From Halapricum desulfuricans (GTDB lineage: Archaea; Halobacteriota; Halobacteria; Halobacteriales; Haloarculaceae): 64,000 nucleotides of DNA. Both the position numbers and the translations under genes were made by a program. The notes beneath the pieces were generated by a model. That model worked only from the letters and a program-made list of their open reading frames with translations. It searched no databases and was not told the DNA's origin. Each line of letters starts with the position of its first letter. Positions within the stretch are counted from its first letter, which is position 1. The stretch lies in NCBI RefSeq assembly GCF_017094465.1, contig NZ_CP064791.1, positions 1,302,001 to 1,366,000 on the forward strand. Direction: 5' to 3'. This document shows, one piece after another, positions 5,000 through 64,000 of this stretch.

Positions 5000-5257
5000 G
5001 TGCCACGACGCTGGTCCGGGCGGCGGGTGATCTACGCCGTCTACGCCGTAATCGTCTCGATCGCCGCGCTCATGGGGTTCGTCCTCGGCGCGATCAACCC
5101 CGAGGGGATGGACCCGACGTTGTTCTTCGTCGTCGACTTACCGGCGACACCGGTCGGGATGGTGATATTCGGCGTCTCGACGATCGGCGTGGGTCTGGGT
5201 GCGCTGCTGTTGCTCGTCGCGTATATCGCGGATCGATACGACGACGCCGCAGTATGA
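5000..5257 (+). CDS. Small two-helix membrane protein (DUF7520-like)
   Basis: An 85-residue protein starting with GTG. SGRRVIYAVYAVIVSIAAL begins a first helix (about 8-30), and a second helix covers about 48-75, ending in the charged YIADRYDD. Similar small proteins accompany terminal oxidase genes in haloarchaea, so it is probably the last member of the cox-linked group in this window. An upstream ATG in frame was not found, and the GTG is supported by the arginine-rich start. The DUF name is from memory. Confidence 0.65.
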   Translation: MPRRWSGRRVIYAVYAVIVSIAALMGFVLGAINPEGMDPTLFFVVDLPATPVGMVIFGVSTIGVGLGALLLLVAYIADRYDDAAV

Positions 5258-31031: not shown

Positions 31032-31694
31032 ATGCCCCCGGAACTGCCGCGACAGCAGTTCGTGCTCGACACGTCGCTTTTCATCACCGAGGAGATACGC
31101 GAGCCCGAGGAATCCCTGGAAGAGGCCGTCCTCAGGCTCCTGGACCGGATCGCGACGGCGCGGCTCGAGCTCAACATCTCCTGTCACATGCCGCCCTCGA
31201 TTCACGACGAACTCGTGACGATGCTCCGTGAGCGCGACGTGAGCGAGGAGGTCTTCGAGCGGCTGGAAACGTGGGTCGTCCGCAAGAGCCCCGATCGCTA
31301 CGGCGTGAACATCCCCGCCGACATCGTCTACCAGTTCGTCGACGAGATGAGCGATCGGGTCGATCGGGGACTCCGAGTCTCCGAGGAAGCACTCCGGGAG
31401 GTCGAACAGCTCGACCCCGACAAGCTGGGCTCGGGCGAGGAATACATGACCGAGGCCGACCGCGTCCTCTCGAACCTCCGGGACAAGTACCGTCAGGCAC
31501 TCCGTCAGGGCGTGCTCGACTCCCGGGAGGACTTCGATCTGCTCGTGCTCGCGAAGGAACTCGACGCTGGCGTCGTCACCGAGGACCGGGGCATCATCGC
31601 GTGGGCCGATCGCTTCGGCCTCCGGTATGTCCGTGGCGGGCAGTTCCCGACGCTGCTGGAGGAGTACTTGCGGGCCACGGGCGTCGAGGGGTAG
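31032..31694 (+). CDS. RNA ligase partner protein (PIN-like domain)
   Basis: A 220-residue protein with a PIN-like nuclease fold. [14 protein letters not shown] near the N-terminus supplies the first aspartate, and [30 protein letters not shown] near the C-terminus gives the later acidic residues (given here in two blocks of the same motif). This family is consistently found beside the archaeal RNA ligase, here divergently transcribed. It may trim or hold the RNA ends to be joined. Nuclease activity has not been shown by the sequence alone. The ATG at 31032 ([11 protein letters not shown]) is chosen over an overlapping upstream start. Confidence 0.85.
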
Positions 31695-31815: not shown

Positions 31816-32007
31816 ATGACTGACGGCGAGATCGAGGCCATCGAGTTCGAGCAGACCGACGGGGTGATGGGCGTCTACATCGAGAGTGTTGGCGTCTACG
31901 AGGACGGGAGCACGGAAGTCCTCGACAGCACGACGGTCGGCAGTCCACGAGAGTTCGAACGCATTCGGGCGTTCGAACAACGCTGCAAACGCCAGTACAG
32001 CCAGTGA
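31816..32007 (+). CDS. Small hypothetical protein, 63 residues
   Basis: A 63-residue, acidic, beta-rich soluble protein with no cysteine and no membrane segment. It has a symmetric look (IEAIEFEQTDGVMGVYIESVG) and a helical, basic C-terminus (IRAFEQRCKRQYSQ has one cysteine). The string gcgtatttgtac about 35 bp upstream may be its promoter. I do not recognise the family. A structured palindromic element starts 5 bp after its stop codon. Confidence 0.55.
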   Translation: MTDGEIEAIEFEQTDGVMGVYIESVGVYEDGSTEVLDSTTVGSPREFERIRAFEQRCKRQYSQ

Positions 32008-32012
32008 ACCGC

Positions 32013-32085
32013 TTCGGGGTCAAGTGGTTCGAGACGCGAAGCGTCTCGTCATCACGGAAGACAGAGTCTTCCGTACGACCCCGAG
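32013..32085. repeat. Three-way-junction palindromic element (PATE/IS605-end-like or structured RNA)
   Basis: An outer stem CGGGGTC/GACCCCG (32015-32021 with 32077-32083, extendable by T-A and T-G) encloses two perfect hairpins: GAGACGC-GAA-GCGTCTC (32031-32047) and ACGGAAGAC-AGA-GTCTTCCGT (32054-32074). The joining strands are 9, 6 and 2 nt. It lies between the small gene and the promoter of the PINA gene. Its style resembles palindromic ends of haloarchaeal IS200/IS605-type elements (PATEs), but it could also be a small RNA or the terminator of the upstream gene. Confidence 0.55.
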
Positions 32086-32183
32086 GCACTCACCTTGCTT
32101 TCTCTGTAGATATCACCGAGCGACCGCCGGATCCGCGGAGGGGGAGTCATCGTGCTTATCAGTCTCGGTCGCCCAGATCAGGC

Positions 32184-34040
32184 ATGGACGTAGTACCGGA
32201 CACGAGCGTGGTCATCGACGGCCGCGTGTCCGAGCAGATCGCCGACGGCGACCTCGCAGGGGCGACGATTGTCGTCCCCGAGGCGGTCGTCGGCGAACTC
32301 GAAGCGCAGGCCAACGACAGCCGCCAGCAGGGCTGGGACGGCCTCGAGGAATTGCAGAAACTCGCTGATCTCCACGACGCGGGCGACATCACTGTCGAGT
32401 ACGTCGGACGACGCCCGGATGCGGTCGAGAAACGCGAGGCCGGCGAAGGAGAGATCGACGCGCTGATCCGCGATCTCGCCGCCGAACGCGACGCGACGCT
32501 TCTGACCAGCGATGTCGTCCAGAGCGAGGTCGCACGGGCGAAGGGGCTCGACGTCATCTATCTCGAGCCCCACGGCCGGGACATCGAGCGACTCTCGATC
32601 GAGAACTTCTTCGACGAGTCGACCATGTCGGTCCACCTCAAGGTCGGCGTCGCCCCGAAGGTCAAGCGCGGCGACATCGGTGACATGCACTACCAGCGGA
32701 TCCGCGACGAGCCGGCCACCGAATCCGAACTGACGGAGTACGCCCACGAGATCGAGGAGAGCGCTCGGGCCAGCCCCGACGGGTTCCTCGAACTTGACGA
32801 GCCAGGGATGAGTATCGTCCAGTTCCGCGAGTACCGGATCGCCATCGCCCGGCCCCCCTTCGCCGACGCGCTGGAGATCACCGCAGTCCGGCCGATCGTC
32901 AAGACCGACCTCGACGACTACGAGTACGCCGACGAACTCCGCGATCGCCTCGCCACCCAACAGCGCGGCGTCCTCATCTCCGGGTCACCGGGGGCCGGCA
33001 AGTCCACGTTCGCCCAGGCTGTCGCGGAGTTTCTGACTGACAACGACTACGCGGTCAAGACCATGGAGAAGCCCCGGGACCTCCAGGTCGGTGACGACAT
33101 CACCCAGTATACGGCACTGGGCGGGGAGATGGCCAAGACCGCCGACTCGCTGTTGATGGTCCGGCCGGACTACACCATCTACGACGAGGTCCGCAAGACC
33201 GACGACTTCGAGGTGTTCGCGGACATGCGCCTTGCAGGTGTGGGGATGATCGGCGTCGTCCACGCTACTCGCGCGATCGACGCCCTCCAGCGACTCGTCG
33301 GACGGGTCGAACTCGGGATGATCCCCCAGATCGTCGATACCGTCGTCTACATCGAAGCCGGCGAGATCGCCAAGGTCTACGACGTACAGACGGAGGTCAA
33401 GGTTCCGGAGGGACTGATGGAGGAAGACCTGGCACGGCCGGTCATCACTATCAAGGACTTCGAGACCGGCCGCCCGGAGTACGAGATATACACGTTCAAC
33501 CGCCAGGTCGTGACGGTGCCGCTGAACGAAGGCGAGAGCGACGAGAGCGGCGTCGACCGGATCGCACGCCAGGAGATCCAGCGCGAGATCCGCTCGGTCG
33601 CGGATGGCCACGTCGAGGTCGAACTGCAAGGTTCGAACCGTGCGGTCGTCTGGGTCGAAGAACACGACATCAGCCACGTCATCGGCAAGGGCGGCGGTCG
33701 GATCTCCGACATCGAGAACCGACTCGGCATCGAGATCGACGTGCGCACCTTCGACGAACGGCCCGGCGGAAAGTCCGGATCGAGTGCCGAGAGCAATGAC
33801 GCCGGATCGACCGGTTCCACCGGCGACGTTGTCACTCCGGAAATCACCTCGCGACACGTGATCGTCCCGGCCCACGAGTACACGGGCGACACCGTAGAGG
33901 TCCAGGCCGACAGCGAGTACCTCTTCACGGCGACGGTCTCCCGCGGCGGCGAGATCCAGGTGTCCCGGGGGAGTGCGATCGCCGAAGAACTGGAGCAGGC
34001 GATCGACCGGGGCAAACAGATCACTGTCGTCCCCTCGTAG
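32184..34040 (+). CDS. PINA-type ATPase: PIN domain, RecA-like ATPase and KH domain
   Basis: A 618-residue protein. Residues 1-130 are a PIN nuclease domain (VVPDTSVVIDGRV, GEGEIDALIRDLA, LLTSDVV with the acidic residues). Walker A is GSPGAGKST at about 266-274, and the Walker B-like YTIYDEVRK follows. A type-KH domain near residue 490-520 shows HVIGKGGGRISDIENRL. A TRAM-like beta tail with VIVPAHEYTGDTVEV may follow. Members form hexameric rings that combine nuclease and helicase-like activity in archaeal DNA repair. The start at 32184 gives MDVVPDTSV and lies about 27 bp after cttatcag. Confidence 0.9.
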   Translation: MDVVPDTSVVIDGRVSEQIADGDLAGATIVVPEAVVGELEAQANDSRQQGWDGLEELQKLADLHDAGDITVEYVGRRPDAVEKREAGEGEIDALIRDLAAERDATLLTSDVVQSEVARAKGLDVIYLEPHGRDIERLSIENFFDESTMSVHLKVGVAPKVKRGDIGDMHYQRIRDEPATESELTEYAHEIEESARASPDGFLELDEPGMSIVQFREYRIAIARPPFADALEITAVRPIVKTDLDDYEYADELRDRLATQQRGVLISGSPGAGKSTFAQAVAEFLTDNDYAVKTMEKPRDLQVGDDITQYTALGGEMAKTADSLLMVRPDYTIYDEVRKTDDFEVFADMRLAGVGMIGVVHATRAIDALQRLVGRVELGMIPQIVDTVVYIEAGEIAKVYDVQTEVKVPEGLMEEDLARPVITIKDFETGRPEYEIYTFNRQVVTVPLNEGESDESGVDRIARQEIQREIRSVADGHVEVELQGSNRAVVWVEEHDISHVIGKGGGRISDIENRLGIEIDVRTFDERPGGKSGSSAESNDAGSTGSTGDVVTPEITSRHVIVPAHEYTGDTVEVQADSEYLFTATVSRGGEIQVSRGSAIAEELEQAIDRGKQITVVPS

Positions 34041-62755: not shown

Positions 62756-63183
62756 GGGCGTGTCGTGAACCCCCTGGCATATCAATTTGTCCCAGTCTCG
62801 GGGATAAGGCCACTTATCCTGTTTTCTAGCCCCCTATATAGCGTCAAAAATGACAACGAACCATCTCGACTCCGGAAAAGAGATTGTATAGTACTACAAT
62901 ACCATATAAAAATTGAGAGCGCGATCTGGCCTCCCGTCATCGCCGATCCTGTAAACCGACGTTCTCCACCTCCAACCCCTGGGGCTATCGGCGGAGAAAC
63001 CCGTATAAATCAACCATCACTTTCACGGCTGAACGGTAGCGTCCAGGTCGTGTTACTACCGACTGTAGCGGTTGAACGAATTCGACACGACTGGCTGCAA
63101 ATACCCATGCAAGCCACCGGCCATACAATCGAGTAGACCACTCGCGGTGTCAGCAATCAACCGATGGTCTCCCGTCCGATGCC
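62756..63183. other. AT-rich intergenic stretch with an operator-like palindrome
   Basis: This 428 bp region has low GC compared with the rest of the window, with runs such as cccctatatagcg and taccatataaaaattg. An 18 bp palindrome-like ATTGTA-TAGTAC-TACAAT lies at 62883-62900. A gene is not supported on either strand. It may hold the promoter of the integrase operon and a regulator site. Confidence 0.4.
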
Positions 63184-63673
63184 CACAGTATCTCGAAAGC
63201 AATCGTTGAGGGATGTGTCGAACGCGGTGTCGGGATGCGTGTCGCTGGCGACCTTGGCGGCATCCGGGAAGATGACGGGAGCGGCGAACCTCTGGGGCGA
63301 CCCCGATGATCTCGATCGACACGGATGGGCGTTTGACCGCTTCACGACGCCACTTGACTACAAGGCAGGAGTTGAGGGTATCGACGTGGAGTTGGTGTCG
63401 GAATGCTATACGTCGAAGTCGTGTTCGGTGTGCAGCCACACTGACGACAATCAGCGCGTTGAACGTGGACTGTACGTGTGTGAGAAGTGTGAGACGGTTG
63501 CGAACGCGGACGTGAAGGGCGCGAAAACAATTCAGCAAAAGGTACTCCCGAGCCTCGCCACGGATGTCGATGATCGGGATAACGGCTGGTTGGCACAGCC
63601 AGCGGTTCACCTGTTCGATCGTAGTGCGGGGTATTTCGCCCCACGAGAGCAGGTTGCTAACCGCAAATCGTAA
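63184..63673 (+). pseudogene. tnpB: Frameshifted 3' remnant of a tnpB gene
   Basis: Two reading frames carry consecutive parts of one TnpB. The first (63184 to about 63284) reads HSISKAIVEGCVERGVG and VAGDLGGIRED, the RuvC-II region. The second (from about 63287) reads HGWAFDRFTT, then the zinc ribbon CSVC...CEKC and NADVKGAKTI with the last catalytic aspartate, ending SAGYFAPREQ. A one-base shift near 63285 breaks the gene. The N-terminal half is missing. It differs from the intact TnpB at 39.3 kb. Confidence 0.85.
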
Positions 63674-64000
63674 TATCCCAATCCAGCGGTGCGGGGCTGT
63701 GGAATACCTGCGCATTCAGTCGCGGGAAAATTTCTCAGTGAGGTTGTCAGTGAGTTATCTACTGCCAGCAATCGGAGCCTCACTCGGGCTGGTATGGCTT
63801 TTTCAGCAGTCAGTCATCCGGCGGCGACAGATGACTTCGATCCCACCGCAGTCGAAGCTAGCTGATCTCGGCAAAACTGTGTCGTCAGCTCCGTAAACGC
63901 CACCAATATCACTCCGGGCAGGTATCAGGACCCAGGGGCCACACCGTAAGACCACTTGAGCAGTGCCCAGTATGCTGGCCGTCTCAGTCACTTCGGCGCC
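63674..64000. other. Region after the tnpB remnant, no supported gene
   Basis: Short open frames exist on both strands but none shows haloarchaeal codon use or a recognisable motif. The sequence just after the tnpB stop probably contains the right end of the old element, but I found no clear terminal hairpin. Confidence 0.4.

Follow-up and report, generated by a model that had tools for sequence, protein, structure and literature searches.

Double-hairpin elements of fungal mitochondria are tiny mobile hairpin pairs without genes, and for the REPINs, which are moved by RAYT transposases, mobility appears to lie with the doublet and not with the single hairpin. In Haloquadratum walsbyi, terminal-only PATEs are described as fused ends of IS605-type transposons, and their 52-bp forms were suspected to move (PMC3119063). 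The same paper describes the SMR-A small mobile repeats HqIRS42/43/55, which are ~110 bp long, have inverted terminal ends and are listed there with a mover that is not known. An active PATE in Halobacterium is cited in PMC10544981, and CGTC-tagged REP sequences are reported in five bacterial phyla in PMC3733652. According to the classification given in PMC6006769, the RAYT classes are bacterial, and in archaea only the IS200-type subclass of Y1 enzymes is reported.

Here, we analysed a palindrome in a 64-kb stretch of DNA (the window). The initial annotation had described a three-way junction at 32013-32085 and offered a PATE-like mobile palindrome, a solitary TnpB-guide-type RNA and a structured terminator as readings. 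The palindrome is present: its 73 nt fold as RNA with -42.4 kcal/mol, compared to a shuffled mean of -21.3 (z = -7.39; none of 200 shuffles equally good), and with flanks, folded as single-stranded DNA, the palindrome has a z of -5.82. The fold consists of an outer stem of 8 bp (32014-32021 paired to 32077-32084) and two hairpins, CGAGACGC-GAA-GCGTCTCG with 8 bp and ACGGAAGAC-AGA-GTCTTCCGT with 9 bp. Stem lengths and coordinates had thus been given correctly to within 1-2 bases, and what had been missed is the nesting of two elements: the sequence unit exceeds the folded part on both sides (32004-32105), the outer stem appears to be mainly the end of a host transposon, and the two inner hairpins appear to be a separate insertion. 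Most likely, the folded stretch represents two tiny gene-less mobile DNA elements, one nested in the other and of kinds that are scattered across salt-loving archaea, and not a regulatory RNA. From sequence comparison we are highly confident that the feature comprises two nested non-autonomous mobile palindromes, i.e. an outer terminal-only PATE and an inner 54-bp unit (Table 1).

Table 1. Proposed features of the nested palindromes, in window coordinates. A slash marks an element boundary or, in the end hairpin, the point of insertion.
Feature	Position	Strand	Basis
Outer element, 102-bp terminal-only PATE, CTAC/AG...GGTTCAC/	32004..32105	- (transposon orientation)	Empty sites; 4 further own-genome copies with the same ends
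Target GTAG (CTAC on the minus strand), kept adjoining the element	32106..32109	-	Present in the L286 empty site and beside all five terminal-only copies
IS200/IS605-type end hairpin, first arm and loop (CTTCGGGGTCAAG)	32012..32024	-	L023 empty form CCTCGGAGTCAAG/CCCCGAGG
IS200/IS605-type end hairpin, second arm (CCCCGAGG)	32079..32086	-	Comparison with the L023 empty form
TGA stop codon of the 63-aa ORF 31816-32007	32005..32007	+	Brought in with the outer-element end; relatives have TAG at the same place
Inner 54-bp double-hairpin unit, placed in the host hairpin between G32024 and C32079	32025..32078	+	Match to model R1, 72.8 bits; clean 54-bp insertions elsewhere
First 27-nt half, bulged hairpin; stem 32030-32037/32041-32048; pairs 32025-32051 and 32026-32050	32025..32051	+	Stem columns covary, as do columns 2 and 26
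Second 27-nt half, inverted; stem 32055-32062/32066-32073	32052..32078	-	Covariation

The element lies between the 63-aa ORF (no Pfam match) and a PIN/T2SSE-ATPase/KH gene (32184-34040), both on the same strand. The search for this locus within the genus covered six genomes, our own included. In three of them (G037, G050 and G003) both flanks were matched and the element was absent, i.e. the site is empty; G023 and G062 matched the downstream gene only and are therefore uninformative on the insertion site. The alignment to the empty sites places the insertion at exactly 32004-32105, between CAGTACAGCCA and GTAG, with GTAG kept once. Orthologous ORFs end in TAG, and the window ORF stops at the equal codon position by the element-borne TGA, so that a transposon end here replaces the stop codon of a gene and leaves the protein length unchanged. 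A position between two same-strand genes, starting at a stop codon, would suit a structured transcription terminator or mRNA-stability element of the 63-aa gene. We consider this reading very improbable, since the site lacks conservation within the genus and is empty in relatives with the same gene order, and since the overlap of the GTAG/CTAC target with the old TAG stop accounts for the position of the element; the terminator branch of the initial annotation thus found no support. By accident, the element may act as a terminator or stability element.

A DNA search of the own genome with the palindrome returned 40 match rows, and in 14 aligned copies the palindrome is common to all, the flanks are mostly different and the orientation is either way. 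Three of the copies (L015-L017) form the ends of 452-bp elements that are 98-99% identical. Five copies share the ends GTGAA...GTAGA (target included), with a length of 107 bp in the window copy (L009) and in L011, and of 162 bp in L013, L020 and L021; the latter two are 98.8% identical over exactly 162 bp, different outside and located at unrelated sites. Furthermore, L022 and L023 are long elements that encode TnpB and an IS200-type TnpA (Y1_Tnp) and carry the same end hairpin; a CTCGGGGTCAAG block is common to both of their ends. The end hairpin of L023 is empty, and between TCAAG and CCCC the corresponding end of L022 holds a 109-bp insert and the window copy a 54-bp insert. It had been proposed that several copies at unrelated sites would indicate a mobile element; these are found in the own genome and, together with the empty sites in three same-genus genomes, they bear out the reading as a PATE or mobile palindrome.

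Like the terminal-only PATEs of H. walsbyi as described in PMC3119063, the outer element shows fused ends with an IS605-type near-terminal palindrome, has no terminal inverted repeats, no target duplication and no transposase or other gene, and adjoins a short conserved target sequence; its copies at different sites suggest that it is mobile, as expected for a PATE. The likeness is one of description and extends to another genus, and the outer element measures 102 bp, not 52 bp as there, because the 54-bp unit sits in its palindrome.

We infer that the outer element originated by a core deletion, in which near-identical end hairpins of an IS200/IS605-type transposon would have recombined and the genes between them would have been deleted, leaving a single hairpin between two end sequences, CTAC/AG... 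and ...GGTTCAC/. No locus was found in both its full and its deleted state. The inner unit would already have inserted at G^CNNC(G) in the loop of this host hairpin, without target duplication. The PATE would then have entered the lineage after its split from the genus relatives, landing beside the CTAC target where the 63-aa gene stops. Its most likely mover is an IS200-type Y1 transposase that acts in trans on single-stranded DNA and has its gene at another place in the genome. The inner unit is now carried along with the PATE, and it also enters other places on its own, tnpA and tnpB included. A longer stretch at L025 (G000:C1:2597658-2597704 and surroundings) nests several different perfect hairpins and closes with an IS605-type end hairpin.

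Could the palindrome be a structured non-coding RNA, either a solitary TnpB-guide-type (omega) RNA or a small RNA? The fold is very stable, compensatory changes are present, and the host hairpin resembles the right-end structure with which TnpB guide RNAs close. Moreover, a 489-bp viral PATE is reported to be expressed (PMC10544981). Against such an RNA, no Rfam family matched the locus at threshold, no tnpB 3' end is attached to it as would be expected for a TnpB guide RNA (omega RNA, sot RNA), the locus is empty in three relatives and hence not conserved in the genus, and the copies lie at unrelated sites in either orientation. The initial annotation had counted a lack of covariation against its proposal. 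Covariation does exist; it spans dispersed mobile copies and is therefore no sign of an RNA encoded here. We thus regard an RNA gene as highly unlikely and the guide-RNA branch as not upheld; layered mobile DNA would explain the eye-catching fold.

A model of the inner unit was built from ten sequences. We extracted 118 units with flanks and used 96 distinct 54-mers, in which the loop is 3 nt, for covariation; other units are 52-66 bp long. Covariation is strong in both stems and between columns 2 and 26 (GC 54, CG 38, other 4), and was absent between columns 2 and 53 of the same 54-mers; the effective sequence number is low (9.3), such that these counts overstate independence. Based on the pairing of column 2 with 26, an outer stem of the unit's own, i.e. 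a three-way junction within the unit, was rejected, and the unit is best described as two 27-nt imperfect hairpins, whose halves T-S-G-(TY bulge)-CGA...TCG-T-S-A face each other head to head. Double-change cells amount to 409 for this two-hairpin model (22 pairs) and to 355 for the three-way model (21 pairs), in an alignment built to fit the three-way structure. Strict half-unit matches in the own genome number 16 (reversed control: 0), and by position every one sits in a doublet or a four-hairpin array; as in REPINs, the doublet rather than the single hairpin appears to be mobile.

The apical stem of the unit varies in blocks and its loops occur in both orientations. Both features, together with the existence of four-hairpin arrays, would be compatible with inner hairpins that arose within the host hairpin itself through replication slippage and template switching, without insertion of a mobile unit. 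We judge this very unlikely, as the same unit with the same ends is found in tnpA, in tnpB and at other sites, in clean 54-bp insertions with one target motif. Within an inserted mobile unit, template switching may keep the arms perfect. A four-hairpin form of the insert with 109 bp, 55 bp longer than the unit, was observed in L013, L018, L020, L021 and L022, and L019 is an apparent hybrid of hairpins from the 54-bp and 109-bp forms.

When exactly 54 bp are taken out, TnpA becomes continuous in L022 and L118, and TnpB in L103 and L079; the L079 junction retains a stop codon. The tnpA of L022 is broken by another 54-bp unit, and that of L023 is unbroken. Read by eye, L181 and L183 belong to one element type and hold the unit at two different points; each shows the site of the other empty. 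No target duplication was seen at the unit insertions. For the target motif we pooled 226 of 232 units, six being dropped for short or masked flanks, in 35 site clusters, a number that is an upper bound on independence since some clusters are variants of one site type. The unit is preceded by G and followed by C in 33 of these clusters, a C stands at +4 in 28 (background 0.309, p 3e-9) and a G at +5 in 22; 110 of the 226 units belong to a single cluster of IS605-type ends. The unit thus appears to enter G^CNNC(G) without target duplication. The idea of a general targeting of hairpin apices came from the IS605-type end, the tnpA site and two other sites. As a rule it was rejected, finding no support beyond the IS605-type end: over 27 site clusters the best spanning stem averages 4.11, compared to 4.09 at 5,000 random points between G and C (p 0.46). 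In L114:801 (G041), the unit lies between an IS605-type end and a tnpA interior, as if a deletion had joined two sites.

Is the inner unit a common element in haloarchaea? In the own genome, 17 separate places match the unit model at E <= 1e-9. In the family sample, 89 of 96 genomes and all 22 genera have a match at E <= 1e-3, and in the phylum sample 56 of 294 genomes do so at E <= 1e-6. At the latter threshold, matches were found in 50 of 53 genomes within the order and in 6 of 241 outside it, a split that was inferred from the order of a sorted list leaving out 218 genomes without a match. Scanning named genomes for the unit pattern gave at least 120 stretches; among the 80 titles listed, 79 are haloarchaea, Haloquadratum included, and one is 'uncultured archaeon A07HR67'. 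The matches outside the order (G102, G121, G131, G139, G246 and G248) have E values of 4e-7 to 1e-12, and three of these six genomes hold 9-15 model matches each; they are putative relatives of the unit or other hairpin pairs.

Regarding the mover of the unit, the own genome has five Y1_Tnp matches; IS200-type Y1_Tnp genes are present, and none was linked to the unit as a dedicated enzyme. Across the 96 genomes, the counts of Y1 and of the unit correlate with a Spearman coefficient of 0.55, which falls to 0.26 once the TnpB count is allowed for; both values ignore kinship, and the unit counts are lower bounds from both strands. Units are matched in 29 of 35 genomes without a Y1 match, seven of which have ten or more. 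In G048, which is 99% complete, neither a Y1_Tnp nor a PF07282 match was found, and clear units of 60-66 bp lie at sites other than IS605-type ends. A resident Y1 gene is therefore not needed for the unit to persist, and may or may not be needed for its movement; on the comparison of counts, a Y1 transposase as the sole mover of the unit was set aside. A RAYT is not the expected mover, given that the archaeal Y1 enzymes reported in PMC6006769 are of the IS200-type subclass only.

How does the inner unit compare to the described repeats? It behaves like SMR-A as described in PMC3119063, in that it has inverted terminal ends, causes no target duplication and inserts into near-terminal palindromes of PATEs and IS605-type transposons. 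With 54 bp it is shorter than the ~110 bp of SMR-A, although a 109-bp four-hairpin form exists, and its double-hairpin anatomy and target motif have no counterpart in the description of SMR-A with which it was compared. It is built like the doublets of CGTC-tagged REP in PMC3733652, with a tag, an 8-bp stem, a 3-nt tail, head-to-head dimers with the tags outside and, apparently, no dedicated transposase. In form, the unit reads (T)CGTY + 8-bp stem + TSA, with a TGGTT variant of the tag in about half. Its loop is 3 nt compared to 4-5 nt, and its tail TSA compared to mostly CCA, in the REP sequences described there. As the unit thus departs from SMR-A in length and from CGTC REP in loop length, we file it as neither.

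REPINs are set apart by the RAYT classes, which are bacterial; the archaeal enzymes reported in PMC6006769 are of the IS200-type subclass only. The fungal double-hairpin elements, which are alike by description, reside in organelle genomes. A search of the open-licence literature brought up the 2011 Haloquadratum paper and the REP papers and no description of the 54-bp unit or its target motif. RepRanger, as presented in PMC12306157, tests archaea, among which no haloarchaeon was seen. We tentatively speculate, with clearly less than even confidence, that the units are order-wide haloarchaeal REPIN-like double hairpins, found mostly in IS200/IS605-type ends and genes, that enter G^CNNC(G) without target duplication through a mover other than a RAYT, which does not have to be the host IS605-type element. 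REP systems would then have an archaeal equivalent, whose mover either awaits discovery or is an IS200-type TnpA borrowed in trans. Should the inner unit prove to be an SMR, the exact anatomy of those repeats would be at hand (two 27-nt hairpins with bulges, fixed ends, a target motif and no duplication), and their mode of movement would become testable.

Some observations concern the neighbourhood of the element. A PIN_5 ribonuclease-domain protein (PF08745, E 2e-74) is encoded upstream at 31035-31691 (+), and a second PIN-domain protein downstream. No tRNA or tmRNA was found within the 64-kb window. A tyrosine recombinase of the phage-integrase family (PF00589; 61305-62345, minus strand) lies close to a TnpB remnant, and this region is possibly the edge of an integrated element. 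At 63540-63728 (+), a match to Rfam sot0042 (88.7 bits, gathering 88) overlaps a TnpB-like ORF (63164-63673; TNB domain, PF07282) at its 3' end, and likely represents a transposon-associated sense-overlapping RNA.
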